Part shown: piece after piece, positions 7,876 through 39,235 of the stretch
Layout: the number at the start of each line of letters is the position of its first letter
Numbering within the stretch: position 1 is the first letter of the stretch
IMG/VR virus record: IMGVR_UViG_3300031673_007329
Location: 1-42,742 of that record
Length of the DNA stretch: 42,742 bases
Origin: a virus
Reading direction: 5' to 3' (one strand)
Notes under the pieces: generated by a model
What the model saw: only the letters and a program-made list of their open reading frames with translations
The model's database searches: none
What the model was told of the DNA's origin: nothing
Program-made: the position numbers and the translations under genes

Positions 7876-8407
7876 ATTCTGGGATAAATTAAATAAGTGT
7901 TCTGATTACTCTGTAGTGACTGCCAATGGTATGGCTAGTGTGACTGCCCATCAAGCACTGAGGGTTAAGAAAGGTCAGAGGCTTATCACCAACGCTGGGC
8001 TGGGTCACATGGGTTCTGGATTGCCTTTAGCGATTGGTGCTTGTATAGCCAGCAAAAAACCCATTGTTTGTGCTACTGGCGATGGTTCTATTATGTTTAA
8101 CATCCACGAACTTCAGACAATCGTTCACCACAAACTGCCTATCAAAATCTTCATCTTTAACAATGGCGGTTACTGGTCAATCCGTAACACCCACCGCAAT
8201 TACTTTGGCGAGCCATTTGCTTGTGATAAGGATACAGGCGTTAGCTTACCTGACTTCAAAAAGATAGCAAAAGCCTTTGGGATAAAATATGAACAAAATG
8301 TCAAGAAAGCTATAGATTATAAAGGGGCGGTCATTTGCGAGTTAATGATAGACCCAGACCAGAAGTTATTACCATCATGGACAGCAGGACAATACCGAAA
8401 ACTATAA
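7853..8407 (+). CDS. Thiamine-diphosphate enzyme, PP domain
   Basis: 184 residues holding the cofactor-binding PP domain: GDGS at 76-79 and NN at 103-104 are the Mg-diphosphate motif, and NAGLGHMGSGLPLAIGA is typical of acetolactate-synthase-like enzymes. The preceding gene supplies the PYR and central domains, so the pair should form one enzyme. The first residues (SYINPY) correspond to the point where one-chain relatives resume after the linker, so only about 15-20 linker residues seem lost. The 23-base overlap allows translational coupling. A recent frameshift is less likely, because the upstream frame ends at a natural domain edge and this gene has its own ATG. Confidence 0.8.
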   Translation: MSYINPYKFWDKLNKCSDYSVVTANGMASVTAHQALRVKKGQRLITNAGLGHMGSGLPLAIGACIASKKPIVCATGDGSIMFNIHELQTIVHHKLPIKIFIFNNGGYWSIRNTHRNYFGEPFACDKDTGVSLPDFKKIAKAFGIKYEQNVKKAIDYKGAVICELMIDPDQKLLPSWTAGQYRKL

Positions 8408-9084
8408 TTTTGTGCGGCGGAAAAGGAATGAGGCTAGTTGAAGAGACTGAGTTCAAGCCAAAACCGATGGTGAAGATAGGCGACGAGCCAATTTTGGGGC
8501 ATATTATGAGGATATATGCCCACTATGGCTATCGGGACTTTATTCTGGCTCTTGGCTATAAGGGGGAACAGATAGTAGACTATTTTTGGAAAGAGGATAA
8601 CTTCAACATACGATTTGCCGATACTGGTCTTGAAACTCCCCACGGCGAGAGGGTTTTAAAACTTAAAAAGTATGTTGATGAAGATTTCTTTATGGTGACT
8701 TATGGAGACGGGGTTGCTGATATAGACATCAGTAAATTGGTGGATTTCCACAAAAAGAAGGGAACAATAGCGACCATTACTGGCGTTCATACTACCTCAA
8801 GATGGGGCTTGGTAAAAACCGATGAAAACGATATCGTTACCCACTTCGGCCAAAAGCCACTTCTTGCCGAGTATATTAACGGCGGGTTTATGGTTTTCAA
8901 AAAGGATTTCTTTGGTATACTAAAAAAAGGCGATATGATAGAGGATGCCATTTTGAGATTGATTCCCAAAAAACAGGTGGCCTTATACAAACACGAAGGT
9001 TTCTGGTATGGTATGGACACTTACAAGGATTTTAAATTCTTAAACAAAGTTTGGAAGGAAGACCCAAAATGGAAAATATGGTAA
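8377..9084 (+). CDS. rfbF: Glucose-1-phosphate cytidylyltransferase
   Basis: 235 residues. Makes CDP-glucose from CTP and glucose 1-phosphate, the entry to CDP-3,6-dideoxyhexoses. The nucleotide-binding start (CGGKGMRL), the run KPKPMVKIGDEPILGHIM and the catalytic-loop motif TYGDGVAD are characteristic of RfbF/DdhA rather than RfbA-type thymidylyltransferases. HEGFW..MDT near the C-terminus also fits. I use the ATG at 8377, 14 codons inside a frame that opens with TTG at 8335. Both starts lie inside the end of the thiamine gene. It is slightly shorter than the usual 257 residues, mainly in the segment after the first 70 residues. Confidence 0.9.
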   Translation: MDSRTIPKTIILCGGKGMRLVEETEFKPKPMVKIGDEPILGHIMRIYAHYGYRDFILALGYKGEQIVDYFWKEDNFNIRFADTGLETPHGERVLKLKKYVDEDFFMVTYGDGVADIDISKLVDFHKKKGTIATITGVHTTSRWGLVKTDENDIVTHFGQKPLLAEYINGGFMVFKKDFFGILKKGDMIEDAILRLIPKKQVALYKHEGFWYGMDTYKDFKFLNKVWKEDPKWKIW

Positions 9085-9968
9085 ACAGAAACATTTTAGT
9101 TACTGGTGGCAATGGTTTTATAGGCAGTCATTTAGTTGCAGAGTTGCAGAAAGATAATGAGGTTGTGTTTTTTCCTTTTGGGAGAGATGAAGATATTAAG
9201 TCCTATTCCAAAGTTCTTAATCTTGTTACCAGATATGAGGTTGATTTCATTTTTCACCTAGCGGCTCAAACTATCGTTGGAACGGCGTACCACAATCCTT
9301 TAGAAACTCTGGCTACGAATATAATGGGGACGGCTAACATTCTCGAAGCAGCCCGCCACTATCCAAAGATAAAAGGCGTTTTAGTTGCCTCTAGTGACAA
9401 GGCTTATGGTAAAATGAGAGACAAATACACGGAAGATAATTCTCTAAAAGGAGACCATCCATACGATGTTTCCAAATCTTGTGCCGACCTCATTGCCCAG
9501 ACTTATTACAATACCTACCAGTTGCCAGTGGTGATTACTCGGTCTGCTAATACCTACGGGGCTGGCGATATTCATTTTAACAGGCTCATTCCTGGCATTT
9601 TCAAGGCGATTATTAAAAACGAAACTCTTAAAATCAGAAGCGATGGCACTTTTACCCGTGACTATATTTATGTCAAGGATGTAGTTGACGCAGACATTGC
9701 TTTAATGGAAAATATGATGAAGACAAGAGGAGAAGCCTTTAACCTTTCTTCTGGCGACCACTATTCTGTTCTTGAGTTAGTTGAGAAAATAGGGGAGATA
9801 TTAGGCAAGGAAGCCAAATGTGAAATCCTCAATACTGCTAAAAACGAGATTCCTTTTCAATCTCTTTCTTGCGAGAAGATAAAGAAAGCTATTGGTTGGC
9901 AAGCTAAATATAGTTTAGAAAAAGCCATTCCTGAAACCTTTAATTGGTATTTAGATTACTTGAAATGA
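9069..9968 (+). CDS. rfbG: CDP-glucose 4,6-dehydratase (short-chain fold)
   Basis: 299 residues. Extended short-chain dehydrogenase with GGNGFIG at 13-19 for NAD and catalytic Tyr132/Lys136 in PYDVSKS. The SSDKAYG motif around 108-114 and the DVSKSCADLIAQ segment are characteristic of RfbG/DdhB, which turns CDP-glucose into CDP-4-keto-6-deoxyglucose. GGAAGGA upstream sets the ATG at 9069, within the end of rfbF. It is about 55 residues shorter than classical RfbG (about 355), so a related 4,6-dehydratase or epimerase cannot be excluded. Location between RfbF and RfbH homologues supports the call. Confidence 0.85.
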   Translation: MENMVNRNILVTGGNGFIGSHLVAELQKDNEVVFFPFGRDEDIKSYSKVLNLVTRYEVDFIFHLAAQTIVGTAYHNPLETLATNIMGTANILEAARHYPKIKGVLVASSDKAYGKMRDKYTEDNSLKGDHPYDVSKSCADLIAQTYYNTYQLPVVITRSANTYGAGDIHFNRLIPGIFKAIIKNETLKIRSDGTFTRDYIYVKDVVDADIALMENMMKTRGEAFNLSSGDHYSVLELVEKIGEILGKEAKCEILNTAKNEIPFQSLSCEKIKKAIGWQAKYSLEKAIPETFNWYLDYLK

Positions 9969-11164
9969 AATACATTCCTGCCTCTGGCAAAGTTTACGAC
10001 CAAGAAGAAATAAACAACGCAATTAAAGTCGCCAAAGACGGTTGGTGGACAATGGGAGAATTTGCCAAGAAGTTTGAGGGCAAGTTCAGCCAGTTGTTTG
10101 GGGGTCGCCACGTTGTTTTAACTAACTCTGGTTCTTCTGCCAACCTTCTGGCTGTTAAGGCTCTTGGTTTAGAACCTGGTGATGAAGTGATTACGGCGGC
10201 AGCGGCTTTTCCAACAACAGTCAATCCGATTATCCAAAGCGGTTGTATCCCAGTTTTTGTTGATGTTGATTTAGCCACCCGCAATGTAATACCAAAGGAC
10301 ATAAAGAAGGCCGTTAGCAAAAAGACCAAAGCCATTGTTTTAGCCCACACGCTAGGTAATCCTTTCTCCCTGAAAGAGATTTGTAAAATTGCCTACAAAC
10401 ATAAGCTTTATTTAATTGAAGATTGTGCCGATGCTTTAGGCTCAGAATACGATGGCAAGTTAGTCGGCACTTTTGGGGATTTGGCTACCTTTAGCTTTTA
10501 CCCTGCTCACCAGATTACGATGGGAGAGGGTGGGGCAGTTATCACCAATAATCTCTTTTTTGCTTATTCAGTACAAAGACTCCGTGATTGGGGGCGGGAT
10601 TGCTGGTGTATGCCTGGAAAAGACAATACTTGCGGAAAACGATTCAACCAGAAATTTGGGAAACTACCCTTCGGCTATGACCACAAGTATGTTTACTCCG
10701 AGATAGGCTACAATCTTAAACCAACTGACTTTCAGCCAGCTATAGGGTTGGCTCAATTAAAAAAACTACCGCAATTTATCAAAAAAAGGCAGGAAAACTT
10801 TGTTTCCCTTCATCTGTTTTTTGAGAACTACCAGCAATTCTTTATCCTGCCCAAATGGGAAAAGGAAGCCACGCCTTGTTGGTTTGGGTTTATGGTTGTC
10901 TTACAAGATGATTGTCCTTTTACCCGCTTGGAAATAGTTAAGTTTTTGGAAGGAAAGGGAATTGGCACAAGAAACCTGTTTGCTGGCAATCTTCTTCGTC
11001 ATCCTGCCTATTTAAAGGTTGAGCATATGGGGGTTGGCAAATTGGAGAACTCAGACAAGATTATGAATGACGGCTTCTGGATAGGAGTTTGGCCAGGGAT
11101 TACCACCGATATGATAGAATACATAACAGAAACATTAGCTGGATTTCTAAAGTCTTATCTATGA
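9965..11164 (+). CDS. rfbH: CDP-4-keto-6-deoxyglucose 3-dehydrase
   Basis: 399 residues. PMP- and iron-sulfur-dependent dehydrase of the DegT fold that removes the C3 hydroxyl. The lysine that would hold PLP in aminotransferases is replaced by His182 (FYPAHQITMGEGG), the hallmark of RfbH/E1. Cys213, Cys215 and Cys223 give CX1CX7C, the distal [2Fe-2S] ligands. The first ligand looks shifted: Cys154 is 58 residues before Cys213, where the Yersinia enzyme as I recall has 57. The reductase partner (E3/DdhD) is not encoded in the window, so a host reductase would have to supply electrons. Start is an ATGA overlap with rfbG. Confidence 0.9.
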   Translation: MKYIPASGKVYDQEEINNAIKVAKDGWWTMGEFAKKFEGKFSQLFGGRHVVLTNSGSSANLLAVKALGLEPGDEVITAAAAFPTTVNPIIQSGCIPVFVDVDLATRNVIPKDIKKAVSKKTKAIVLAHTLGNPFSLKEICKIAYKHKLYLIEDCADALGSEYDGKLVGTFGDLATFSFYPAHQITMGEGGAVITNNLFFAYSVQRLRDWGRDCWCMPGKDNTCGKRFNQKFGKLPFGYDHKYVYSEIGYNLKPTDFQPAIGLAQLKKLPQFIKKRQENFVSLHLFFENYQQFFILPKWEKEATPCWFGFMVVLQDDCPFTRLEIVKFLEGKGIGTRNLFAGNLLRHPAYLKVEHMGVGKLENSDKIMNDGFWIGVWPGITTDMIEYITETLAGFLKSYL

Positions 11165-12639
11165 TAAAAAAGCCTTTGTTTATCTTTGAGATGGCCAACA
11201 ACCATATGGGGAGTGTTGAACACGGTCTGAAGATTATTCAGGAGTTTCACAAAATTACTGATGGGTTTGATTTTGACTTTGCTTTTAAGTTTCAGTTCAG
11301 GGATATACCAACATTCATTCACCCAGATTACAAAGAAAGAATGGATATCAAATATGTTAAGCGCTTTACTGAAACTGCTCTTTCTAGGGCAGAATGGGTA
11401 ACACTAATAAGAGAAATAAAAAGACTCGGCTTTATTTCTATTTGCACTCCCTTTGACGAAAAGTCAGTTGATGCGATTGAGGAATTGCATTTTGACATTA
11501 TTAAAATCGGCAGTTGCTCAATGCCAGATTGGCCGTTGCTTGAAAGAATAGTCAAAACTGACAAGCCGATTATTGCTTCCACGGCAGCGGTTACTTTTTA
11601 TGATTTAGACCAAATAGTTAATTTCTTCCAACACCGAGAGAGGGACTTTAGCCTAATGCATTGTGTCGGTGAGTATCCTACCCCAGAAGAACACCTTCAA
11701 CTTAACCGAATAGGCTTGTTTAAAAATAGATACCCAGGAGTGCCTGTTGGCTTTTCCACCCACGAAGAGCCTACTAATTTTAGTGTTGTTCAACTGGCAA
11801 TTGCCAAGGGAGCAAGAATCTTTGAAAAGCACGTTCAGATTGACAAGGTAAATGACTACTCTGCCACCCCAGAACAGGCTTTAGAGTGGCTTAGGGCCGC
11901 CCAGAGAGCATTTAAAATGTGCGGGGTTACTGATTCAAGGTCAATTTCTACAATCAAAGAACATTCTGATTTAAGACAATTCAAAAGGGGTGCTTTTGCT
12001 AAAAGGGAGATTAAAAAGGGAGAAGCTGTGGGATTGAAAGATATGTTTTTCGCTTTTCCCAATCAAGAGGGCCAAGTTTTAGCAAATGATGTATCCAGAT
12101 ACACCCATTTTTACGCCAACAAGACAATCAAGAAGAACGGGGCAGTTATTGATGTTAAAAAAGTTAACATTAGAGAAAAAGTTTATTCGATTGTAGAGAA
12201 GGCAGATAAGATTTTGAAAAAACACAGGATTCCTATTCCTTCGGGCAAGACAGATATTTCAGTTTCCTATCACTATGGCCTCGACAGATTTTACGAAGTT
12301 GGGGCGGTTCTGATTACCTGTATCAACAGGGAATATTGTAAAAAGCTGATTGTCATGTTTGCTGGGCAGGGACTTCCAATCCACCACCATAAGAAAAAAG
12401 AAGAAACATTCTACTTCCTTGCTGGTGATTGGACTATTGACCTTGAAGGAGAGAAAAAGGCTTATAAACCTGGCGACATTCTCACCGTTGAGCGTGGAGC
12501 CACTCACATCATTAAAGCAACAACAGACGGGGTTTTAGAAGAAGTTTCTTCAACCCATTATCCCAGCGATTCTTACTACGAGGATGAGAAAATCATTAAA
12601 AACAAAAACAGAAGAACTCTCTTAACTTATTGGATATGA
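11161..12639 (+). CDS. NeuB-like synthase with SAF and cupin domains
   Basis: 492 residues. The first 255 or so form a NeuB-type barrel: EMANNHMGS at the N-terminus, KFQ, CTPFDE, the IKIGSC and IASTA strands, GFSTH and FEKHV all match sialic-acid-synthase-family enzymes that condense phosphoenolpyruvate with a sugar. A SAF (antifreeze-like) domain follows at about 285-345. A C-terminal cupin (about 365-485) holds the metal motif HHH...E followed by PGD. The fusion suggests a nonulosonic-acid-type synthase coupled to a sugar isomerase or epimerase step. The ATG at 11161 is chosen for its ATGA overlap with rfbH. The substrate is unknown. Confidence 0.8.
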   Translation: MIKKPLFIFEMANNHMGSVEHGLKIIQEFHKITDGFDFDFAFKFQFRDIPTFIHPDYKERMDIKYVKRFTETALSRAEWVTLIREIKRLGFISICTPFDEKSVDAIEELHFDIIKIGSCSMPDWPLLERIVKTDKPIIASTAAVTFYDLDQIVNFFQHRERDFSLMHCVGEYPTPEEHLQLNRIGLFKNRYPGVPVGFSTHEEPTNFSVVQLAIAKGARIFEKHVQIDKVNDYSATPEQALEWLRAAQRAFKMCGVTDSRSISTIKEHSDLRQFKRGAFAKREIKKGEAVGLKDMFFAFPNQEGQVLANDVSRYTHFYANKTIKKNGAVIDVKKVNIREKVYSIVEKADKILKKHRIPIPSGKTDISVSYHYGLDRFYEVGAVLITCINREYCKKLIVMFAGQGLPIHHHKKKEETFYFLAGDWTIDLEGEKKAYKPGDILTVERGATHIIKATTDGVLEEVSSTHYPSDSYYEDEKIIKNKNRRTLLTYWI

Positions 12640-13646
12640 AGGCGACAGAAATTAGTGGTCAAGCACCAGGCGGAAAGAGAACAAAACTTGCTGATGTTCT
12701 TCCTTTGGCTACTCCTTATGTAGTCCAGATATTCCCAATTTACGCTTGTAATTTCAAGTGTAAGTATTGTATCTTTTCGATACCCAGAAACAAGCGGGGT
12801 TTTATTTCAAACAAAGTTGTTATGGATTTTGGTTTATTTAAAAAATGTATCGATGACTTAACTGAGTTTCCAGATAAGGTGAAAATGCTACGCTTTGTGG
12901 GGATGGGAGAACCGCTTTTGCACAAAAGGATAGCAGATATGGTTAAATACGCAGTCTCAAAAAAGGTTGCCGACAGGGTAGCGATTTTAACAAATGGGTC
13001 ATGTTTAACTCCAAAATTGTCAGATGCCTTGATATCAGCTGGCCTTTTAAGATTGGAGATATCTGTACAGGGAACGACAGCAGAAAAGTACAAGGAGATA
13101 AGCAATGTTGATATCGACTTTAAAGAGTTTGCTGATAATATTCAATACTTTTTCAATCATAAAACCGAAACAAAAATACATATTAAAATTGTGGATATTG
13201 CCTTAGATGATAAAAACGATGAAAGAAGATTTTATGAAATTTTTAGTGATATTTGTGACTCTATCGGGATTGAACACGCTGGTCCCATTTTCCCTGGTGT
13301 GAAATACAACAAAAACTTGAAAGACCGCCCATTAACTCAATTTGGTTTAGAAGTTTCAGAGGTTAAAGTTTGTCCGCAACCTTTCTTTCACTTACAGGTT
13401 AATCCAGATGGGAAAGCAGTTTCTTGCTATTCTGTCACTTATCCAGCTATTATGGGGGATTGTAACAAGCAAACATTATTGGAAATATGGAATGGGGATA
13501 AACTCCAACAGTTTAGAAAAAAGATGTTTGATGGCAGAAAGAATGTCTGTAAATTATGTGCTAACTGTAATATAATTAAACACAGATTGTTTCCAGAAGA
13601 TGTTTTAGATAATGATATTGAAAGATTAAGAGGGTTATACAAATGA
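12636..13646 (+). CDS. Radical SAM/SPASM protein
   Basis: 336 residues. Cys38, Cys42 and Cys45 form CX3CX2C for the radical-SAM cluster. The C-terminal quarter has a SPASM-like cysteine array (VCPQPF, SCYS, GDC, VCKLCANC), which would hold auxiliary [4Fe-4S] clusters. The GMGEPLLHK segment fits the family fold. SPASM enzymes act as peptide maturases, sulfatase activators or dehydrogenases of sugars and aminoglycosides; the glycan context favours a sugar oxidation or epimerisation. Start is an ATGA overlap with the NeuB-like gene, and the stop overlaps the next ATG. Confidence 0.8.
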   Translation: MKATEISGQAPGGKRTKLADVLPLATPYVVQIFPIYACNFKCKYCIFSIPRNKRGFISNKVVMDFGLFKKCIDDLTEFPDKVKMLRFVGMGEPLLHKRIADMVKYAVSKKVADRVAILTNGSCLTPKLSDALISAGLLRLEISVQGTTAEKYKEISNVDIDFKEFADNIQYFFNHKTETKIHIKIVDIALDDKNDERRFYEIFSDICDSIGIEHAGPIFPGVKYNKNLKDRPLTQFGLEVSEVKVCPQPFFHLQVNPDGKAVSCYSVTYPAIMGDCNKQTLLEIWNGDKLQQFRKKMFDGRKNVCKLCANCNIIKHRLFPEDVLDNDIERLRGLYK

Positions 13647-14455
13647 ACATTGGAATTTTTGGGGCGACTTCACATATTGCCCAAGGATTGATTCATAACT
13701 TTAGCAAGAATGATGACCAAACTCTTTATTACTTCGAGAGAAGTAGTTATGGTAAAAATGGCTGGTTGTATAAGGTTGATTTTGATGTCATTATCAACTG
13801 CGTGGGTGTAGGAACGAATCCAAAAGACCATACAGATTATTTTACGGTTACCGAGAAATACGACAATTTAGCGATTGATTATCTTCTTAAACACCCCAAG
13901 ACACTCTACATCAGTTTTTCAAGCGGAGTTGTACACAGGCCACTTGAGAGTGATTATGGCACTGTTAGGCTTTATACAGAGGCCAAACACCGAGCCTTTA
14001 AAGACTTAAACATTGTTGATTTGAGGCTTTATTCTTACTTCAGTCGCTTTCTCAATATGGATGACGATTACTTTATGGTTGATGTAATTAAGGCAGTCAT
14101 AGACAAAAAACTACTGGAAACCAGTATAGGAAATTTTGTCCGAGATTTCATCCATCCCAATGACCTTTTTTCTCTTATAAAGAAAATAATAAAGAGGCGT
14201 AAGATTAACCAGGTTTTTGAAGTTTGTAGTCGTGCGCCAGTAACAAAGCAACAAATTCTTGACTATTTCTCATCTGAACATGGATTAAAATACAAGGTTA
14301 CAAAATTTCGGCATTGGGTTAGTGCTACTGGTACAAAAGATTGCTATTTTCCTGATACTCTTAGACCAGAGGTATTAGGCTACGAACCAAAATACACATC
14401 TTTACAAACTATTAAGGAGGAAGCAAAATGGCTGCTAAAAAAAGACGAGATTTAA
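13643..14455 (+). CDS. Short-chain reductase/epimerase of the glycan cassette
   Basis: 270 residues. The N-terminus IGIFGATSHIAQG is a nucleotide-binding glycine motif, and Tyr111/Lys115 (YTEAK) is the catalytic pair of extended short-chain dehydrogenases. RDFIHPNDL around residue 170 is typical of nucleotide-sugar epimerases and reductases. If the thiamine enzyme makes a 4-acetyl branch, a reductase of this kind (YerF in Yersinia) would be needed to finish a yersiniose-like sugar, so this is the natural candidate. That role is inferred. The gene starts in an ATGA overlap with the SPASM gene and overlaps the glycosyltransferase by 28 bases. Confidence 0.75.
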   Translation: MNIGIFGATSHIAQGLIHNFSKNDDQTLYYFERSSYGKNGWLYKVDFDVIINCVGVGTNPKDHTDYFTVTEKYDNLAIDYLLKHPKTLYISFSSGVVHRPLESDYGTVRLYTEAKHRAFKDLNIVDLRLYSYFSRFLNMDDDYFMVDVIKAVIDKKLLETSIGNFVRDFIHPNDLFSLIKKIIKRRKINQVFEVCSRAPVTKQQILDYFSSEHGLKYKVTKFRHWVSATGTKDCYFPDTLRPEVLGYEPKYTSLQTIKEEAKWLLKKDEI

Positions 14456-15657
14456 GAATTTTATGGAGTTCAAATGGTTTTTTTACAAATTCAGGATATG
14501 GCGTGGAGACACGCGAGATTTTAGGCAGGCTTTTAGATGATGGCTGGATAGTTGGTCATATCGCTTTCTATGGTCTTGAGAGTTTCCCTCAGATGATGGA
14601 TATTCCTAGTCCAAAAGGTGGTCAGAAAATTAAAGTCTATCCAAAAATGGCCCATCCTTATGGTTCAGACGCTTTAATCAATTGCGGGATAGATTTTAAG
14701 GCTCATGTAATTTTCACCATGCAGGATGTTTGGCCTCTTGACCCCAATCATTTAAGACGAATTAAGATGTACATTCCCTATGTGCCCATTGACCAAGAGC
14801 CAGTTCCTCCAGAAGTCATAATGCGTTTAAGGTTTGCCAACCGCATTATTACTTTTTCTCGTTACGGGCAAGCGGCTTTGGAAAAAGCTGGTTTGTTTTC
14901 AGACCTAATTTTAGAGGGAACTAATGTTAATACTTTTAAACCTTTGGATAAAAAGAAAATGCGGGAAAAGTTCAAACTTCCCCAAGACATCTTCTTGTTT
15001 GGTGTTATCGGTGCTAACAAAGATAATCCACCAAGGAAAAGTTATCAGGAAATGATAGAGGCTTTTAATATCTTTCAGAAGAGACACCCAGAAGCAAGAA
15101 TGATGTTCCACACCCAGCAACACGCACCTGGTGGTTTTCCCATTATCCCTTTTGCCAAACATCTTGGTTGTAATCAGAAAATCTTTTTTATAGAACCTGT
15201 TAGGGGAACCCACTTTTTTGATTCAGAAAAAATTTGCCAAGAGATAAATGCTTTTGATGTTTGCCTCCATACTTCCCAAACAGAAGGTTTTGGATTGGTC
15301 ATTATTGAAGCCCAAGCTTGTGGCGTGCCCATAATTGTAACTAGAGGAATGTCAATGCCAGAGTTAGTGATTGAAGGTAAAACTGGTGAAATTGCTGAGG
15401 TTGCCTCTAAAAGGTTTTCTCCTGCTCAAGGATATTGGGTTGTTCCCTCAGTCCCTTCAATTGTGGAAAAGATGGAGATTCTGTACAAAAAGTTACATCA
15501 AAAGAATACAATCGCCAAAGATTGCCGAAAATGGATTGCGGATAATTATAATATTGATACCATCGTAAAAGAGAAGTGGATTCCCTATCTTGAGAAGCTC
15601 CAAAAGAAAATCTTGACACCAGTAAAAAAAAGTGATAAGGTTATATTTACTAGATAA
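14428..15657 (+). CDS. Glycosyltransferase, GT-B fold (GT4-like)
   Basis: 409 residues. N-terminal donor-independent domain begins LRILWSSNGFFTNSGYG. The C-terminal domain has the HTSQTEGFGLVIIEA segment whose two glutamates give the E-X7-E signature of retaining GT4 enzymes, followed by GVPIIVT and PELV. AGGAGG sets the ATG at 14428, inside the reductase gene. It is the last gene of the cassette and is probably the enzyme that transfers the finished sugar onto a surface glycan or virion protein. The acceptor is unknown. No membrane segment is seen. The -35 box of the next promoter lies inside its last codons. Confidence 0.85.
   Translation: MAAKKRRDLRILWSSNGFFTNSGYGVETREILGRLLDDGWIVGHIAFYGLESFPQMMDIPSPKGGQKIKVYPKMAHPYGSDALINCGIDFKAHVIFTMQDVWPLDPNHLRRIKMYIPYVPIDQEPVPPEVIMRLRFANRIITFSRYGQAALEKAGLFSDLILEGTNVNTFKPLDKKKMREKFKLPQDIFLFGVIGANKDNPPRKSYQEMIEAFNIFQKRHPEARMMFHTQQHAPGGFPIIPFAKHLGCNQKIFFIEPVRGTHFFDSEKICQEINAFDVCLHTSQTEGFGLVIIEAQACGVPIIVTRGMSMPELVIEGKTGEIAEVASKRFSPAQGYWVVPSVPSIVEKMEILYKKLHQKNTIAKDCRKWIADNYNIDTIVKEKWIPYLEKLQKKILTPVKKSDKVIFTR
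15613..15641 (+). promoter_or_regulatory. Promoter of the tail unit
   Basis: TTGACA (15613-15618), 17 bases, then TGATAAGGT, an extended -10 with a weak hexamer TAAGGT (15636-15641). The predicted start is about 15649, the first base of the leader RNA. Much of the promoter lies inside the 3' end of the glycosyltransferase gene. The weak hexamer makes this the least certain of the four related promoters; its leader supports it. Confidence 0.65.
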
Positions 15658-24667: not shown

Positions 24668-24863
24668 TAACAAAATAACCTTGCGAGATTTATATGCCCT
24701 AAGCACATCTATGGACAAGAAATTGGACAAGATGGGGGAGAGAGTTTCTGTTTTGGAAATTTGGAAAGCCACAGTTCAGGGTAAAATCACACTTTTGGCG
24801 GGCATTTTCAGCTTGGGATTCACGATAATGTGGGAGTATTTTAAAAGCAGATTTAAAAGATGA
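24660..24863 (+). CDS. Holin-like small membrane protein
   Basis: 67 residues from the ATG at 24660 after GGGGGG. A charged coiled N-terminus (DLYALSTSMDKKLDKMGERV) is followed by one hydrophobic segment (ITLLAGIFSLGFTIMWEYF) and a basic C-terminus, the pattern of haemolysin/XhlA-type holins. It ends in an ATGA overlap with the endolysin, the classical holin-endolysin arrangement. A longer frame to 24549 overlaps the transglycosylase gene and is not needed. Confidence 0.75.
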   Translation: MTNNKITLRDLYALSTSMDKKLDKMGERVSVLEIWKATVQGKITLLAGIFSLGFTIMWEYFKSRFKR

Positions 24864-25756
24864 CCCTAAATGATTTCATCAAGAAATATGATGGTAAGGG
24901 AGTAGATTATGACAAGAATGGCAAATTTTGGTGCGTGGATATTTTCAGAGCTTATTGTAAAGAGGTGCTTGAATTTCCCCAATCGCCAGTTGTTACTGGA
25001 GCAGCCGACATTTGGGACACCTATTTAAAAGACTATTTTGACCGAATTAACAATACCCCAGAAGGAGTCCCAGACAAAGGCAGTGTTATGTTGTGGGATA
25101 AAAATGTTGGTGGGGGTTATGGCCATGTGGCACTCTTTGTTGAGGGAGATACTAATTCTTTTAAGTCTTTTGAACAGAATTGGCCGACTGGGAGCTTGTG
25201 CCACACTCAGGGGCATTATTACAAAAACATCTTGGGCTGGTTAAAACCGAGAACGGGGGTGGTGGCTGACTATTATCAGGGAATTGATTTAAACAACAAA
25301 GAGAGCATTAAGGTTTGTATAGATATTTGGAAAGCCGTCGTTGATGGCGAATATATTAAAAAGGAGGCAAACTATGAAGATGCGATTTCAGATTTGGAAG
25401 ACAAGGTTAAAGGTCTTAATGAAGCATTGGCAGAAAAATCGCTTGAGGTCAACACTCTTGGAGCAAATCTCGAAGCTCAAGAAAGAGACAATAAAGACCT
25501 CGCTGGCCAACTCAGTACAGCGGGAAGTGAACGGGATTCGTTCTCTCGCCAAGTCAAAGAAGCCGATGCGGAGTTTAAAAGGCTTGCTGAAACGATTGGC
25601 AAGCTGGAGACAGACCTAACTACTGCTGAGGAAACCCAGAACGCCCTTAAAACGCAACTGGCGGCTTCGGTTAGGGTAAAAATACGGGCAATGTCTCTGT
25701 TTGGGTTGTTAAAAGTCAAGTATTTCGATAAAGGGGGTGAAAAAAATGGCAGTTAA
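24860..25756 (+). CDS. CHAP-domain endolysin
   Basis: 298 residues. The first 130 form a CHAP amidase/peptidase: Cys25 in FWCVD, His89 in GYGHVALF and an acidic/Asn site in FEQNWP give the catalytic residues. It should cut peptidoglycan cross-bridges or the amide. The C-terminal part (about 165-270) is a long Glu/Lys/Leu coiled coil in place of a usual cell-wall-binding domain, perhaps for oligomerisation. There is no signal peptide, so export by the overlapping holin-like gene is expected. The last codons contain the ribosome site of the next gene. Confidence 0.85.
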   Translation: MTLNDFIKKYDGKGVDYDKNGKFWCVDIFRAYCKEVLEFPQSPVVTGAADIWDTYLKDYFDRINNTPEGVPDKGSVMLWDKNVGGGYGHVALFVEGDTNSFKSFEQNWPTGSLCHTQGHYYKNILGWLKPRTGVVADYYQGIDLNNKESIKVCIDIWKAVVDGEYIKKEANYEDAISDLEDKVKGLNEALAEKSLEVNTLGANLEAQERDNKDLAGQLSTAGSERDSFSRQVKEADAEFKRLAETIGKLETDLTTAEETQNALKTQLAASVRVKIRAMSLFGLLKVKYFDKGGEKNGS

Positions 25757-26300: not shown

Positions 26301-26312
26301 AAACTGGCCTCT

Positions 26313-26340
26313 TGACAAAGTTTATTTTTATGTTATATTA
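26313..26340 (+). promoter_or_regulatory. Promoter of the pseudoknotted small RNA
   Basis: TTGACA (26313-26318), 16 bases, then TGTTATATT, an extended -10 with hexamer TATATT (26335-26340). The start is expected at about 26347, in the first paired strand of the RNA below. Confidence 0.85.
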
Positions 26341-26346
26341 AATATG

Positions 26347-26441
26347 CGGTTCAATGTTGTTAAACTAAAGACTCTCTTAGTCTTGCGGGAAGCCGCAACG
26401 AAAGTTTAACACCTTTCCGCAGGACTTGGAGAGTTTTTTTG
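26347..26441 (+). ncRNA. About 95-nt pseudoknotted RNA with terminator
   Basis: A 9-bp stem pairs 26359-26367 with 26404-26412, closed by TGCGG (26346-26350) with CCGCA (26418-26422). A terminator stem pairs ACTCTC (26372-26377) and AGTC (26380-26383) with GACT (26424-26427) and GAGAGT (26430-26435), then seven T. A GAAG-capped hairpin (26384-26389 with 26394-26399) sits inside. The terminator interleaves with the first stems, giving a pseudoknot. No ORF of note. Its own promoter and terminator make it a discrete small RNA; a ligand-sensing leader of the longer RNA is the alternative. It matches no class I can name. Confidence 0.7.
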
Positions 26442-26866
26442 TTGACAATTGAATGAAGCGGTGGCGGAAAAGGTAGACGCATCGGGTAAAGGTTATTGCT
26501 TAGTTCCTCCCCGACACGAGGATAATACTAAGTCGTATGCAAGGTGACTCATATAGTTAAACAGACAAGCTGTGCGATACGGGACTATCAAATCCTTGCC
26601 CGTTTCATTGAGTTGTTAAACTCAAGTCAGGAAGTAACCAGCAGGAAGACTTTAAATTAGCTGCGAACTAAAAACTCACCGCATACCCCTAGCGGAGGAA
26701 ATGGGGAGCAGAGGAGTTTTTAAAACTGACGGCCGTCTTTAAGTAAATTAAACCTTTCCTTGCGCAAAAAGGTTAAGGGTTTGTATTCTAAAAAATTAAA
26801 CAGATTGTGTATTACGAAGTCTAAAGCCTAGACTATCAGTAGGAGTTTCTTAGACTTCAAATAATA
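26442..26866 (+). ncRNA. Large structured noncoding RNA region
   Basis: No gene fits these 425 bases, but pairing is dense. Stems: 26500-26505/26528-26533, 26506-26510/26519-26523, 26535-26539/26578-26582, 26540-26545/26595-26600, 26609-26615/26620-26626, 26627-26631/26727-26731, 26671-26678/26715-26722, 26752-26758/26769-26775, 26817-26825/26851-26859. At least three pseudoknots appear: 26483-26487 with the loop at 26511-26515; the interleaved pair at 26535-26600; and CCGC/GCGG with CCCC/GGGG at 26680-26707. Bases 26460-26482 resemble a tRNA-Leu D arm, but no tRNA follows. Size and phage setting recall the ROOL/GOLLD type, unproven. Confidence 0.6.
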
Positions 26867-27091: not shown

Positions 27092-27271
27092 ATGAAGAAG
27101 AACTACTACACCATCAAAGAATACTGCAAACTCACAGGAACTCACAAAAACACAATTTATTCTTGGATAAAAAAGGGTGACTTGGAAACAATGCAAAAGA
27201 CCAAAAGAGGTCGCCACCTTATCCCTTACTGGGAAATTCCTAGTTTTATAAGAAAGGAGAAAAATGAATAA
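27092..27271 (+). CDS. Excisionase/MerR-like helix-turn-helix protein
   Basis: 59 residues. YYTIKEYCKLTGTHKNTIYS followed by WIKKGDL and a basic tail is the winged helix-turn-helix pattern of excisionase-family proteins: a helix that reads the DNA, then a Lys/Arg wing with GRHLIP. It is the first gene after a strong promoter and is predicted to be leaderless, which suits an early regulator. The phage shows no integrase, so regulation rather than excision is more likely. Its end overlaps the next start (27264). Confidence 0.75.
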   Translation: MKKNYYTIKEYCKLTGTHKNTIYSWIKKGDLETMQKTKRGRHLIPYWEIPSFIRKEKNE

Positions 27272-31850: not shown

Positions 31851-32842
31851 TGAAGATAATTGCCCACGCACCATCCCGAATTTCCCTCTTTGGAGGTGGG
31901 ACAGATTTGTCCCCATTCTGTGAAGAATACGGTGGCAAGGTTTTAAACATGGCTATCAACCTACGCCACAAATGCGTTTTAGAACCAAGCCCCATTCCTG
32001 GCCACTTGTGGTATTTAATCAGTGCTATGGGTGAAATCAGAGAAGGCAGTATTAATGATTTACCCAAGCGGGGGGTCGATAAAAAATTCGGTCTTATCTA
32101 TGAGATTATCCGTTCCTACGATTTGCCAAACGGCTTCAGGTTTGCTGATGAGTTTGACGGCATCCAGTCAGCTGGTTTGGGTTCTTCAGCCTCAGCCGCA
32201 GTTTCTATGATTGGGGCTTTTAACAGGTGGTTGGGTATTAAGCAGTCAAGACAAGAGGTTGCTGAAAAGGCTTGGCAAATGGAAATAAATCTAGGCTGGG
32301 TATCAGGAAAGCAAGACCAATACGCTTCTGCTTTTGGCGGGGTTAACTTCTTTGCTTTCAACGAAAAAGTTTACAATGACCCGATTGAAAGAGGAGCAGT
32401 GGAGAAATTTTTACCTTGGTGTCTGCTTGTTTACACAGGGGCTACAAGACACTCAGCTGAAATTCAGGCTGTCCTCAGGAAAAGAATGAAGGGTAAAAAA
32501 ACAATCAAGGCTCTTAAAAAGTTACGGGCTTTAGCCTGGGAAAGCCGAGAACATCTTAGAAGCGGTGATTACCAGAAGGTAGGCGAAATGTTGGATGAAT
32601 CGTGGGAATGGAAAAAGCAATCCAACCCAAAAGCAACCAGCCCAAGAATAGACAAGTTTTACCAAGAGGCAATGGAAGCTGGGGCGATTGGTGGCAAGGT
32701 GTTGGGGGCGGGGCAAGAAGGCCACATGTTGTTTGTGGTAGCACCACGCCAAAGAGAAGCTGTTTTAAAAGCACTTGCCCTTAAAGAGATTGATTTCAGT
32801 ATTTGTTGGAACGGCCTAGAAGTAAGAGAGGACTATCAATGA
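31850..32842 (+). CDS. GHMP sugar kinase (heptose-7-phosphate kinase-like)
   Basis: 330 residues. APSRISLFGGGTDL at the N-terminus and AGLGSSASAAV at 108-118 (the ATP loop) are GHMP-kinase motifs, and GKQDQYASAFGGVNFF is characteristic of the HddA family, which phosphorylates D-glycero-D-manno-heptose 7-phosphate at C1. The start overlaps the phosphatase stop (TAATG), and the end overlaps the nucleotidyltransferase ATG. A fucokinase or another sugar kinase of the same fold cannot be excluded. No isomerase (GmhA) gene is present, so the substrate would come from the host. Confidence 0.85.
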   Translation: MKIIAHAPSRISLFGGGTDLSPFCEEYGGKVLNMAINLRHKCVLEPSPIPGHLWYLISAMGEIREGSINDLPKRGVDKKFGLIYEIIRSYDLPNGFRFADEFDGIQSAGLGSSASAAVSMIGAFNRWLGIKQSRQEVAEKAWQMEINLGWVSGKQDQYASAFGGVNFFAFNEKVYNDPIERGAVEKFLPWCLLVYTGATRHSAEIQAVLRKRMKGKKTIKALKKLRALAWESREHLRSGDYQKVGEMLDESWEWKKQSNPKATSPRIDKFYQEAMEAGAIGGKVLGAGQEGHMLFVVAPRQREAVLKALALKEIDFSICWNGLEVREDYQ

Positions 32843-33369
32843 AAGCACTCATATTAGCGGCGGGCTTGGGGACTCGCCTACTGCCACTCACTAAAGATAC
32901 GCCTAAATGTATGATAAAGGTAGGAGGTAAGCCCGTGCTTGAGCATTTGGTTGACCATTTAAACAGCTTTGGCATTACTGAGATTATAGTAAACTTACAT
33001 CACCTACCAGAAAAGATATATCAGCACTTTGGAACAAGGTTGCTCTATTTCTATGAGCCGAAGTTGTTGGGGGAAGAAAGAACGGAAAGAGAGTTACAAA
33101 ACTGGCTGGGGGAAAGCTACATTGTAATGAATGGCGATACCCTGACAGATGTGGATATTGGAAAAATGATAGTGCTTTCTTCTAACGAAGAAGCGGAGAT
33201 TTTGTCAGTTGATGATGGAGTTTATACTGGAACAAGGGTAGGCCGTAAATGGCAAGGGAAAATCCTAAAAGTTGAGTTTGAATGTTACTGGGTTGATATC
33301 GGCACACCAGAAGGACTTAAAAAAGCAAGAGACCATTATGAAAAAAACAAACTTAATCATTTGTCCTAA
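32839..33369 (+). CDS. Sugar nucleotidyltransferase (HddC-like)
   Basis: 176 residues from the ATG at 32839 (ATGA overlap with the kinase). The signature AAGLGTRLLPLTKDTPKCMIKVGGKP, an LILAAGxGTR-type NTP-binding start, and MNGDTLTD at the metal site identify a nucleotidyltransferase. Beside a heptose kinase it would charge heptose 1-phosphate (HddC makes GDP-heptose). It is 50-60 residues shorter than typical, the part after the first 110 residues being compressed, yet the C-terminal VDIGTPEGL motif is retained. Base specificity cannot be read from sequence alone. Confidence 0.8.
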   Translation: MKALILAAGLGTRLLPLTKDTPKCMIKVGGKPVLEHLVDHLNSFGITEIIVNLHHLPEKIYQHFGTRLLYFYEPKLLGEERTERELQNWLGESYIVMNGDTLTDVDIGKMIVLSSNEEAEILSVDDGVYTGTRVGRKWQGKILKVEFECYWVDIGTPEGLKKARDHYEKNKLNHLS

Positions 33370-33604
33370 TTGTAGAAGGCAAGGTAGAATAGAGGTATTA
33401 GGCGAAGTCAACCAGTTAGGCCATCTGTTAGTGATGCGCTTTCACAAAGGGATGACAACGATAATTGGCAGTGATTTTGCTGTTGTTTGTGGTAAGTGTG
33501 GAGAGCTAACTTACATTAAAAAGAGAAAAAAGATAAACCCCTATCAGTGGCTTTTGGGTGTTTCCAGGTTCTCAAGCATAGGGACAGTGATGGGGACAGT
33601 ATAG
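33338..33604 (+). CDS. Zinc-ribbon protein, unknown
   Basis: 88 residues from the ATG at 33338, inside the end of the nucleotidyltransferase gene. CPNC near residue 9 and CGKC near residue 52 form a zinc ribbon around a beta-rich core. The C-terminus is basic. Unknown role; one of five small CXXC proteins in this region. Confidence 0.55.
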   Translation: MKKTNLIICPNCRRQGRIEVLGEVNQLGHLLVMRFHKGMTTIIGSDFAVVCGKCGELTYIKKRKKINPYQWLLGVSRFSSIGTVMGTV

Positions 33605-33615
33605 GCGGTGAGAAT

Positions 33616-33756
33616 ATGAAAAAGATATTGCCTTGTAAAAAAACAGTCAGTGGCAACCACATCTGGGTGATGGTGGACATTGGTGAAGCAAAGCTCAAGA
33701 CTTGTGCTGCCTGCGGATTGGTTGATGATAGAGCAATTGACAAAGATGACAATTGA
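33616..33756 (+). CDS. 46-residue protein with one CXXC pair
   Basis: GGCGGTGAG precedes the ATG at 33616. It reads MKKILPCKKTVSG..., has CAAC near residue 30 and an acidic C-terminus (DRAIDKDDN). The Cys at 7 may complete a metal site. It overlaps the next gene by 11 bases. No homologue recognised. Confidence 0.5.
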   Translation: MKKILPCKKTVSGNHIWVMVDIGEAKLKTCAACGLVDDRAIDKDDN

Positions 33757-34027
33757 GGAAACGATTGATTACATTACTAAAAAGAACCTCCTCAAGTGGC
33801 GGAATCAAGCCCATTATCGCAATTGGGGAGCAAAAGGCTACATTCTGGAGGTAACAACCTCCATGCTTTGGCCAACTGAGGTAATCTTAAAAACACGAGA
33901 GCTTGGAATGGAAAAGGAAATCCGCCTTCCAAAGGAGAAAGTGATTAAGAAGGTAACAGGCTCTTCTCTGGCTGAGTGTTTAAGAAAGATTAAGAAGGTA
34001 GTTGACAACGGTGTTACAATAGAGTAA
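33746..34027 (+). CDS. Unrecognised 93-residue protein, last of the early region
   Basis: ATG at 33746 inside the preceding small gene. Mixed alpha/beta, with EETIDYITKKNLLKW at the N-terminus and basic ends. The promoter of the terminase unit (34002-34030) overlaps its last codons. No motif recognised. A longer frame from 33680 runs wholly within neighbouring coding sequence. Confidence 0.55.
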   Translation: MTIEETIDYITKKNLLKWRNQAHYRNWGAKGYILEVTTSMLWPTEVILKTRELGMEKEIRLPKEKVIKKVTGSSLAECLRKIKKVVDNGVTIE

Positions 34028-35102: not shown

Positions 35103-36551
35103 ATGGATGAAAAAATATTATGGCAACCACACCCAGGGCCCCAGACAGAAGCTTTAAGAAGAACGGAGTTTGAGATATTGTATGGAGGAGCCAGGGGTGG
35201 AGGGAAGACTGATGCGGGGATGGCTTGGTTGCTAAGGCACATTGATAATCCTAAATACAGGGCTTTGGTTATCAGAAAAAACGCTAAGGACTTATCAGAC
35301 TGGGTAATTAGGGCAAGAGATATGTACCAGGGGACTGGGGCGGCTTTTGCTTACAGACCAGTAGAAATTACTTTTCCTTCTGGAGCCATCATCAGGACTG
35401 GCCACTTAAAAGATGAAAACGCTTACGGCCAATATATTGGCCACGAATACCAGAGGGTTGTAATTGAGGAATTGAACCAAATTCCAAAGGAGGAGTTGTA
35501 CTTAAAGTTGCTTTCTTCTTGTCGGTCTACGGTTCCTGGGATTTCTACTCAAGTATTTGTAACTACTAACCCAGGGGACATTGGCCACGCTTGGGTGAAA
35601 AAGAGATTTGTGGATGTAGCTCCTGATGGTGAAACCTATATTGACCCAAAGTCTGGTTCCACCCGTGTTTTTATTCGGGCTAGAATTACTGATAACCCTA
35701 CCCTATGTGAAGCCAATCCTGAATACGTTGAGTATTTGAGGACTGGATTGCCAGAACATTTGAGGAAAATGTGGTTTGAGGGTTCTTGGGATGTAGTGGC
35801 TGGGCAAGTGTTTACGGAGTGGAGTGATATCAAACACGTGGTTAAACCCTTTGAGATTCCTAGCGATTGGGCTAGGTGGATTGGTTTGGATTACGGGGTT
35901 AACGCCCCCTCTGCTGTTGGTTGGTACACTCAGAATTACGATGGCAGGGTTTTTCTTTACAGGGAATTGTACATGACTGGTGATGAGTTTCACAAAGCAT
36001 TCGGGGCCCCCCTGACACCAAGCAGGTTGGCCAGGGTAATTATTAAAGTTACTGAAAAGAACAAGGAGGAGTACCAATATTGCGTTGCCGACCCTTCTTT
36101 GTGGAACAGAACGATTAGCGGCAGGGGGTCAAAGGCGATTGAAGGGGAAGGGGAGAGCATTGCCGAAACAATGATAGTGGTTGGTTTAAGAATGATTAAG
36201 GGGGATAACGACAGGACAAACGGTTTGGGCAGATACAGGGAGATGTTAACGACAGCTCCTGATGGCAAGCCCTGGTATCAGGTTTTTTCAAAGTGTCGGG
36301 ATACGATAAGGACGATTCCATCCTTGCCGTACGATTTGAGAAAAGAAGAGGATGTGGACACTGATGCTGAAGACCATTGCTACGACAGGGACAGATATTT
36401 TTTCATGTCTCGGCCAATGAAACCAGTAATAGAAAAAAAAGTAAAGTTAACAAGAATACAACAATCGCTTAGAAAAAAAAAGGAGGATTATGAAAGGACA
36501 AGCGAAGATGAAATTCCAGAAAAAGACTGGAAAGAATGGATGGCAGCCTAA
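35103..36551 (+). CDS. terL: Terminase large subunit
   Basis: 482 residues. The ATPase half has Walker A GGARGGGKT (28-36) and Walker B VVIEEL with catalytic Glu (121-124). The nuclease half shows GLDYG (Asp263), VADPS (Asp330) and a late Asp/His cluster (EDHCYDRDRYF), the RNase H-like metal site. It drives packaging of DNA into the procapsid and cuts the concatemer. Full length for the family. The C-terminal 60 bases overlap the next gene in another frame. Confidence 0.9.
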   Translation: MDEKILWQPHPGPQTEALRRTEFEILYGGARGGGKTDAGMAWLLRHIDNPKYRALVIRKNAKDLSDWVIRARDMYQGTGAAFAYRPVEITFPSGAIIRTGHLKDENAYGQYIGHEYQRVVIEELNQIPKEELYLKLLSSCRSTVPGISTQVFVTTNPGDIGHAWVKKRFVDVAPDGETYIDPKSGSTRVFIRARITDNPTLCEANPEYVEYLRTGLPEHLRKMWFEGSWDVVAGQVFTEWSDIKHVVKPFEIPSDWARWIGLDYGVNAPSAVGWYTQNYDGRVFLYRELYMTGDEFHKAFGAPLTPSRLARVIIKVTEKNKEEYQYCVADPSLWNRTISGRGSKAIEGEGESIAETMIVVGLRMIKGDNDRTNGLGRYREMLTTAPDGKPWYQVFSKCRDTIRTIPSLPYDLRKEEDVDTDAEDHCYDRDRYFFMSRPMKPVIEKKVKLTRIQQSLRKKKEDYERTSEDEIPEKDWKEWMAA

Positions 36552-36998: not shown

Positions 36999-37253
36999 AT
37001 GATTGAGATTGCGGTCATTATTATTTTATCAGCCCTCTTAGCTTGGGAGAAGTATTCTAATCGTAAAGAGAGGGAAAAGTTTATCAACGCCTTGATTGCC
37101 AAAAACGCCCAAGAACTTCAAGACCTTGATTATGTGGATAAGTTAAAACCTGCGAAAGAAGAACCAGAGATTCCACCAGATTTAATGCCGATTGATAAAA
37201 TGGAAGTAGACAGTAAAGAGTTTAAAAAAGTAATTGAAAAGGAAACAAGCTAA
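36999..37253 (+). CDS. Small membrane-anchored protein before the portal
   Basis: 84 residues: an N-terminal membrane helix (IEIAVIIILSALLAW), then a basic and acidic tail containing NALIAKNAQELQDLD and an acidic C-terminal part. Small one-helix proteins of this shape occur directly upstream of the portal in many phages; their function is not known. Its stop overlaps the portal ATG (TAATG). Confidence 0.65.
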   Translation: MIEIAVIIILSALLAWEKYSNRKEREKFINALIAKNAQELQDLDYVDKLKPAKEEPEIPPDLMPIDKMEVDSKEFKKVIEKETS

Positions 37254-39235
37254 TGGCTGAAAAAATAGACAGACTAGAGAAGTTTTCAACCTCAAAAACT
37301 GAGACTAAGAGCATGGGCGAGGTGGTTGATAACATGATGACGATGTCTAAGAACCAGCGTCAAAGTCATGAGAAGCGCTGGTATGACAACAACTTCTTTG
37401 ATGACGGTTATCACTTCAGGTTTCTTTCAAGAAGCACGGGCAAGATTGTTGATTTAAGCGCAAGGGCAAGCATTTACACTCCCTTAAGAGTTATCCCCAA
37501 AGCCTCCAAACAAATCAGGGGTGTGGTTAATTTAATTACCCAGTCTGATTTTATACCCGTCATTTTTCCAGACAGGGTAGACAAGGCCAATTATGGCGGT
37601 GATGAAAGGGCTTACGAGATGGCTAGGAAAACGGCTAAAGACAAGGCTAAAAAGGTTGGCTACTGGATATTGGACAGTTGGGATGACCACGAGATACAAG
37701 ACTGGAAAGCCCCTTTCATGGGAATTTTGACTGCCAAGCACGGTGTTAGTTATCTCCAGGTTTGGCCTGATGTTGTTGAGGAAAAAATTAAGAGCCAGGT
37801 TTACGACGCTTTTGACATTTATCTTATTGGTTCTTTGACCAGTATTTACGATTCTCCGTTCATTATCAAGGCAGTGCCGAAGTTAATCAGCCAGATAAAA
37901 GCCAACGAGAATTTTGATGAAGACCAGTTGCGGAAAGTAAACCCTGATAACAAATATGCTTCCAGTGAAATCAAAGAAGCCTACATGAGTTCTCGGTTTG
38001 GCAAAGAAACCCGACAAGATTCAGCCGCCACTTTAATTCAGAAAGAAGCCTACATCAAAGAATATCTTAACAGGGATAACATGGCTCGGATTAAAAAACA
38101 AAAGGACGGGGAAAAGATATTGAAAGGCAAAAAAGAAGGCGATCAAGTAATTCGGCAGGTTTTTGTAGCTGGCAATGTTTGGCTTCGGGATGTTTACACT
38201 GACTTGCCAGAATATCCTTTTGTTGATTTGAGATTTGAACCGGGGCCGATTTACCAAGTGCCTTTGATTGAAAGGTTCAAATCAGCGAATAAATCTTTGG
38301 ACTCCGTTATCAGCAGATTGGAAAGATACATCCACACGATGACGGTCGGAACCTGGACAAAAAGGAAAGGCGAGCAATGGAAAATGAGTAACCTGGCAGG
38401 TGGTCAAGTGATTGAATACGACGCAGTTCCGCCAACCCAAGGGAGGATGGCCAGAGTTCCCCAGCACGTTTTTTCCTTTATCTCTTTCTTAAACAGCGTC
38501 ATGGAGGAGCAGGGAGTGACGACAAGCACTTTGGGTAAAATTCCTACGGGGGTCAAAGCCCACGCCGCTATTGAATCTCTAAAGCAAAGCGAGTATTCTA
38601 GCCAAACTATCGCCTTGAAGCAAATGAAAAAAGCGATGAAGGGAATTACCAAAAAGATGTTGGAAATAGCTGACAGTTATTATCTCCGCCCCCAAGAAGT
38701 ATCTTACATGGAACAAGGCGAACCAGTCTTTTTTGATGTTATCGGCCAGCGGGGTTTGGAGGGACGGCAAGAATTGGGGATTGAAGTAGGGGAGGGGATT
38801 GTCCCACTTAAAAAAGATTTCAAGGTAAAGATTGAAATGCAGACTGGTTTGGGGTTGACAATTGAAGGCAAGCGGGAATCAATGTTTAAACTGGCTGAAT
38901 ACATGAGAGACTTGGCCAGGGAAGGCTACTTGACACCAGAGGCAACCAAGGTTGTTCTTCAGCGATTGCTTGAAACCTATGAATTTGGGGCAACGGCTGA
39001 ATTTATGGAAGGAATGGAAGATATCGCAGAGAAGATGCAAATGACCGAACAGCAGATAAACCAGATGAAACTGGCTTTGGCCGAGGTAATTAGGGACACG
39101 GGTTTGGCCAAACCAAAGGAAGAAGAAAAACGGGGTGGCGGTGGGGAACTTCAATCAACCACGACAGTGGAAACTGGCAAAGAGGGCAGGAAAACCAAGA
39201 GGGAAGTAAAAATGATTCAGAAAGAGGGTGAGTAA
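37253..39235 (+). CDS. Portal protein
   Basis: 660 residues, of the size of P22- or T7-like portals. The start is in a TAATG overlap with the upstream gene. Residues 1-200 hold a clip/wing-like mix. The central region has conserved-type segments (WLRDVYTDLPEYPFVDLRFEPGP, and SVISRLERYIHTMTVG). The C-terminal third is helical and ends in a Lys/Glu/Gly tail. It forms the dodecameric entry to the capsid, docking terminase then tail. Called by size, gene order and overall flavour. Confidence 0.75.
   Translation: MAEKIDRLEKFSTSKTETKSMGEVVDNMMTMSKNQRQSHEKRWYDNNFFDDGYHFRFLSRSTGKIVDLSARASIYTPLRVIPKASKQIRGVVNLITQSDFIPVIFPDRVDKANYGGDERAYEMARKTAKDKAKKVGYWILDSWDDHEIQDWKAPFMGILTAKHGVSYLQVWPDVVEEKIKSQVYDAFDIYLIGSLTSIYDSPFIIKAVPKLISQIKANENFDEDQLRKVNPDNKYASSEIKEAYMSSRFGKETRQDSAATLIQKEAYIKEYLNRDNMARIKKQKDGEKILKGKKEGDQVIRQVFVAGNVWLRDVYTDLPEYPFVDLRFEPGPIYQVPLIERFKSANKSLDSVISRLERYIHTMTVGTWTKRKGEQWKMSNLAGGQVIEYDAVPPTQGRMARVPQHVFSFISFLNSVMEEQGVTTSTLGKIPTGVKAHAAIESLKQSEYSSQTIALKQMKKAMKGITKKMLEIADSYYLRPQEVSYMEQGEPVFFDVIGQRGLEGRQELGIEVGEGIVPLKKDFKVKIEMQTGLGLTIEGKRESMFKLAEYMRDLAREGYLTPEATKVVLQRLLETYEFGATAEFMEGMEDIAEKMQMTEQQINQMKLALAEVIRDTGLAKPKEEEKRGGGGELQSTTTVETGKEGRKTKREVKMIQKEGE

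Follow-up and report, generated by a model that had tools for sequence, protein, structure and literature searches.

What kind of RNA, if any, is encoded by a gene-free stretch of 425 bases (positions 26442-26866) in a viral genome, in which an earlier note had recognised a tRNA-Leu-like D arm, found no matching acceptor, anticodon and T arms, and proposed a large, pseudoknot-rich RNA of the ROOL/GOLLD type or of a new class? The window, that is, the whole 42,742-nt stretch of DNA analysed here, is a complete 42.7 kb IMG/VR record of a tailed phage, laid out as follows:

1576-2814, major head protein
4.4-15.7 kb, sugar/methyltransferase island
up to ~21.7 kb, virion and tail proteins
24860-25756, endolysin
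26312-26339, plus strand, promoter-like site TTGACA-16-TATATT with TG before the -10 (by its 11/12 consensus match only), upstream of the tRNA-like RNA described below
26366-26440, plus strand, terminator- or attenuator-like hairpin followed by 7 U (-39.4 kcal/mol, z = -5.3), between the promoter-like site and the tRNA-like RNA
27092-27268, Cox-like excisionase
35103-36551, terminase, 8.5 kb from the tRNA-like RNA
37253-39235, portal-like protein

The closest relatives of the terminase among the matches listed reached only 34-38% identity and included a TM7 phage. The island (4493-15657) lies inside the phage structural region and carries methyltransferase, epimerase, NeuB-like, radical SAM and glycosyltransferase genes, and at 32803-34027 a protein with an N-terminal match to phrog_3980 is seemingly split over several frames, by a possible frameshift or gene decay. 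The absence of genes was confirmed, since no plus-strand ORF of at least 40 aa was present in 26442-26865 (a minus-strand ORF at 26360-26482 was disregarded). The promoter-like site and the terminator-like hairpin both precede the element, so that its production may depend on read-through. Within 26312-26440, the loop of the very stable hairpin may form a pseudoknot, judging from an 8-nt complement (TGTTAAAC/GTTTAACA).

A single ornate RNA spanning all 425 nt would agree with the lack of an ORF, with the pseudoknot-capable complementarity and with the location of some relatives near tRNA genes, and ROOL and GOLLD are likewise non-coding phage RNAs often found near tRNA genes, although they are much larger and adopt other folds. 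The Rfam search that the earlier note had proposed gave no group I intron, tmRNA, ROOL or GOLLD match in the window, nor any other match at gathering score, and up to E = 5 it returned only spurious miRNA/snoRNA matches. Inspection of the window by hand for group I intron and tmRNA cores also gave no match. Folding z-scores were -1.3 for the whole 425 nt, -2.8 for 26442-26622 and -0.9 for 26609-26866; the 3' 258 nt thus folded like shuffled sequences, and the remaining ~260 nt outside the element (26607-26866), no more stable than shuffles, had no support as structured RNA. As the conserved unit turned out to be only 152 nt long, we consider a 425-nt ROOL/GOLLD-type RNA scarcely credible. What survives of that proposal is a structured non-coding RNA absent from Rfam.

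The decisive lead came from a weak relative, a small protein, which pointed to a contig (L002) carrying an intact copy: GGGGCGG-UG-GCGGAAUAGGUAAACGC-[59 nt]-GCAGGG-UGCAAAU-CCCUGC-CCGCCCC. A search for homologues by way of endolysin and terminase yielded none, and a set of 80 terminase loci searched for the D arm gave no additional match. The shared D-arm pattern occurred in at least 119 stretches of viral contigs; fitting acceptor and T stems accompanied 99 of the 118 matches examined, giving 95 distinct elements, and ARAGORN called only 7 of the pattern matches ordinary tRNA-Leu. When the T arm by itself served as the pattern, 120 stretches were found, and because acceptor and D arm were present as well in 130 of 137 matches, the conservation of the D arm does not stem from the choice of pattern. 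Altogether more than 200 relatives were found in phages, including many metaviromes, none of them annotated as this RNA. The window copy is divided as follows (all plus strand):

26455-26606, whole conserved element of 152 nt, a tRNA-like RNA with 13/13 acceptor and T-stem pairs
26442-26454 pairing with 26607-26619, acceptor-helix extension of 13 positions with one G:G mismatch
26455-26461, 5' acceptor strand GAAGCGG, pairing with CCGTTTC at 26600-26606 (7 bp, family covariation)
26462-26480, U8-G9 linker and tRNA-Leu-type D arm, GCG/CGC stem, loop GAAAAGGTAGA
26481-26538, 58-nt domain replacing anticodon and variable arms, with a conserved AU at its end (sequence inspection)
26482-26486 (TCGGG) with 26510-26514 (CCCGA), crossing 26499-26509 (CTTAG..CCTC) with 26518-26532 (GAGG..CTAAG), candidate H-type pseudoknot of the 58-nt domain, drawn by eye
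26539-26544, 5' T-stem strand GCAAGG, pairing with CCTTGC at 26594-26599 (6 bp)
26547-26588, 42-nt T-loop insertion between positions 55 and 56, UG[ACUC...CUAU]CAAAU
26594-26606, 3' T-stem strand CCTTGC and 3' acceptor strand CCGTTTC, with no CCA after

The D arm first noticed is real: 26460-26486 fits the tRNA-Leu-type consensus without mismatch (chance expectation 0.00), and 18 of 19 positions agree with the family consensus UGGCGGAAuAGGUAGACGC. Scanning 5.1 Mb of shuffled window sequence for D arm, acceptor and T arm together produced 0 matches. The anticodon arm is indeed absent, replaced by the 58-nt domain; the acceptor and T arms are present, and had seemed absent because of this 58-nt anticodon region and the 42-nt T-loop insertion. 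Once the insertion is removed, the T loop reads UGCAAAU, the canonical loop of the family. With its covarying 7-bp acceptor and 6-bp T stem, its insertion-type T loop and its D arm, 26455-26606 is a divergent member of a large family of phage tRNA-like RNAs. ARAGORN at default stringency reported no tRNA in the window, with intron options included, or in the copy stripped of its T-loop insertion.

Covariation analysis, which had also been proposed, strongly supported the acceptor and T stems of the family. In 104 aligned cores, 97.8% of the acceptor/T-stem cells were paired, compared to 72.5% in shuffles, and the nine top column pairs by APC-corrected mutual information (58 columns) were all predicted acceptor/T-stem pairs. 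All four Watson-Crick pair types occurred at the outer five acceptor positions, the D stem showed compensatory changes (GCG/CGC to GUG/CAC), and the T loop UGCAAAU was near-invariant even though it lay outside the first search pattern. The two stems stack to 7 + 6 = 13 bp; in ordinary tRNAs, this stack has 12 bp. Most relatives have 0-2 extra acceptor pairs, compared to the 13-position helix of the window copy. Expanded T loops (UGA...CAAAU) were found at 14 loci besides the window, two of which (L250 and L254) are identical in sequence; the inserts measured 36-89 nt in 11 of the 14, usually as UG-ACUAUACGAG...CUCG(U/G)-CAAAU, 9 nt in one and only 1 nt in two. Five other elements carried inserts in the D loop, placed between its two conserved Gs, and the other two of seven candidates for this form were artefacts of the search. 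The insertion sites in both loops look onto the D/T elbow contact, as would fit helices extruded from an elbow that is itself kept.

These data also bear on whether the locus could be a decayed tRNA-Leu gene or an attP remnant, as the tRNA-Leu-like D arm and the Cox-like excisionase of the window might suggest. That reading is refuted by the covarying stems, and more than 200 members, a near-invariant UGCAAAU loop unlike UUCRAAU and the clean result of the D-arm family scan in shuffles likewise leave it with next to no probability. The family does resemble class II tRNA-Leu in its D arm, U8/G9 linker, T-stem and acceptor geometry and the position of a variable-arm-like stem; it differs in having no anticodon arm or anticodon, a T loop with G at position 55, a 6-bp T stem, no encoded CCA and a free acceptor sequence, to which the window copy adds its 42-nt insertion. 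No conserved base was found at the discriminator position of the relatives. Since it lacks an anticodon, an encoded CCA and a fixed discriminator, the RNA is not a decoding tRNA.

The length of the domain between the D and T arms ranged from 8 to ~170 nt. Among 140 representatives, a variable-arm stem ending just before the T stem could be formed in 69%, compared to 16% of shuffles; a crossing helix, producing an H-type pseudoknot, was possible in 58%, compared to 13% of shuffles at the same scoring threshold. In one class of middle domains, represented by six sequences (Paenibacillus, Bacillus, Sporosarcina and two viral records), 99.1% of the cells in three helices, among them the pseudoknot, were paired, the covariation score exceeded that of all 500 shuffles, and the pseudoknot helix contained double compensatory changes. 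By inspection, positions 26481-26538 of the window can likewise be drawn as a stem plus an H-type pseudoknot; the automatic search, which needs uninterrupted stems, missed it because the window stem is interrupted. Hence, of the nine or more stems and at least three pseudoknots first suggested for the 425 nt, one H-type pseudoknot fits the family architecture, and the other pseudoknots found no support.

Comparison of two Bacillus phages revealed how the middle domain may change. Between SBSphiJ5 and SBSphiJ6, the upstream 300 nt are 96% identical and the 3' cores fully so (100%); their middles agree at only 32%, which is the level of shuffled sequence. The SBSphiJ5 middle matches its counterpart in SPP1, a phage of another type, at 76% identity, and the SBSphiJ6 middle matches that of phi3T at 61%. 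Judged from these sequences, the middle has been swapped as a cassette between sister phages within a nearly unchanged frame. In another pair, L287 and L297, nearly identical otherwise, the inner-hairpin loop of the middle domain is inverted (AAGAAACGTATGTCTT / AAGACATACGTTTCTT), and six further middles (L132, L117, L097, L184, L186 and L193) hold T arms like those of tRNA 3' halves or a nested tRNA-like sequence.

The family is apparently uncatalogued and widespread in phages. Rfam 15 gave no match to the element at 25 relatives' loci and none at cut-off; with E up to 10, only two 14-bit tmRNA (RF00023) matches appeared there, both outside the elements. No published description was found in the open-licence literature, so one may exist elsewhere. 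A strict pattern run against 84,980 bacterial and archaeal species (one genome each) retrieved just 39 stretches, most of them from Bacillota and a few from MAGs of other phyla, indicating that the element is rare in host genomes; in 299 genomes of one phylum a strict pattern retrieved the seed genome only. The element was present, not annotated as such, in the following isolated phages:

Leuconostoc phage LN34
Enterococcus phage EFDG1
Lactobacillus phage ATCC 8014-B2
Bacillus phage SPP1, between head genes 9 and 11 (scaffold)
Weissella phage WC29P3
SPG24, SBSphiJ1/5/6, 010DV004, Goe17 and BSTP3
phi3T, where one additional C separates the T stem from the acceptor
Listeria phage P100 (L366/L367), 126403-126543, minus strand, a divergent copy in an unannotated gap of a tRNA cluster

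The P100 copy has the T loop UGAAAAU and a changed D loop, and its acceptor ATACTCG is common to many viral-contig elements sharing one middle class. Two family members stand in tandem in L164, L171 and L246. Other short sequences of tRNA-like character, carrying T arms of the ordinary GGTTCRATTCC type, were noticed in the SPP1-like phages SPP1 (L260, ~950-981) and 279BB001 (L354, 1121-1563), where they adjoin the element or take its place between genes 9 and 11.

Because 75 of 93 loci had no tRNA gene, the element is not merely debris of tRNA clusters; in the other loci, tRNA genes shared the stretch with it. Neither a constant spacing nor a fixed place beside one gene was found across the loci. 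Frequent neighbours, as we read their sequences, are ArpU-like on the upstream side and small-terminase-like or HNH-like on the downstream side, and in several temperate phages the copy is presumably flanked by an ArpU-like late regulator on one side and the small terminase gene on the other. Such positions, together with the co-oriented genes flanking most copies, are what would be expected if the RNA acted in cis as punctuation of polycistronic phage transcripts, a tRNA-like signal cut by RNase P and RNase Z so as to separate or protect mRNA segments; indeed, the conserved parts (acceptor, T stem, elbow) are exactly those that RNase P reads. Nevertheless, we regard this explanation as unlikely, if the least unlikely of the alternatives: the spacing to genes is not constant, cleavage needs no elaborate, covarying and exchangeable pseudoknot domain, and the stack is one of 13 rather than 12 bp.

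The same neighbourhoods could hint at a role in the virion or in packaging, comparable to that of phi29 pRNA, since many loci have putative small terminase homologues, HNH genes and head genes nearby and the SPP1 copy lies between two head genes. In large phages, however, the element sits inside tRNA clusters far from the terminase, the window copy is 8.5 kb away from it, and exchange of cassettes between unrelated phages would be a poor fit for a motor part, all of which makes a packaging role improbable.

Other RNAs combining a tRNA-like part with further structure were compared. Known mimics of tRNAs include tmRNA, Y RNAs and the 3' ends of plant viruses. The tmRNA (RF00023) also joins a tRNA-like end to a pseudoknot domain and has no anticodon; the family, however, has neither a tag reading frame nor a tmRNA-type 5' end, and its D stem is present. 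YrlA-type Y RNAs, which partner Ro60, are non-coding, contain a tRNA-like domain and have been reported from phages (Chen et al. 2014, as cited in PMC12282133), and the long extra stem below the acceptor of the window copy is reminiscent of them. That outer stem is absent from most relatives, in which the tRNA-like part is the whole RNA, and neither the window nor its relatives gave an Rfam match. Moreover, no TROVE/Ro60 protein was encoded in any of 57 records, namely the window and 56 others (55 with a family member, T4 being the exception), and we judge membership among the Y RNAs very improbable. Membership in ROOL, GOLLD, group I introns, tmRNA or Y RNAs was in no case supported. T4 species 1 RNA (rnaC) is a further parallel, a small stable RNA of a phage tRNA cluster that closes with a canonical T arm followed by an acceptor strand fitting its own 5' end; it differs in its ordinary T loop (TTCGAAT), and by scan it lacks the family D arm. 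It lies at 1409-1547 of L249 (minus strand) and ends in CCGGGTTCGAATCCCGG-CGTTTCG, with GAAACG at the 5' side, so that a tRNA acceptor and T arm enclose an expanded middle.

The explanation we favour, with about even confidence, is that the family consists of stable RNAs acting in trans, in which a tRNA mimic serves as a scaffold presenting an exchangeable module. It is favoured by the covarying core, the pseudoknotted middle, the exchange of modules, the lack of a fixed gene neighbour and the rarity in hosts. It is weakened by the co-orientation of many copies with their neighbours and by the scarcity of simple terminator-like sites, which were found within 150 nt downstream of only 15 of 215 elements (8 of 663 random windows). 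Through its tRNA-like frame, the transcript would fold, have its ends processed and gain protection in the way a tRNA does, by RNase P and related elbow-recognising enzymes, and the pseudoknot domain would be the specificity module, binding or titrating a putative host or rival-phage factor. Regarding expression, the P100-like Listeria phage CKA15 has two unannotated regions near tRNA genes driven by strong promoters (PMC12282133). They lend circumstantial support to expression of the family and are candidates for the P100 element.

Although tRNA-like non-coding RNAs are a known kind, the phage family and its module swapping appear to be new. It adds a widespread, anticodon-less phage family, whose copies in the SBSphiJ phages and in classical laboratory phages such as SPP1 carry no annotation, and it may bear on the unexplained T4 species 1 RNA. 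The sister phages differing in a swapped RNA module, with cultivable B. subtilis hosts, offer a testable system. We tentatively suggest, with slightly less than even confidence, that these elements are undescribed, cosmopolitan phage tRNA mimics in which a conserved elbow is combined with recombinable, host-associated pseudoknot modules, and which the phages may use as effector RNAs directed at host factors or defences.
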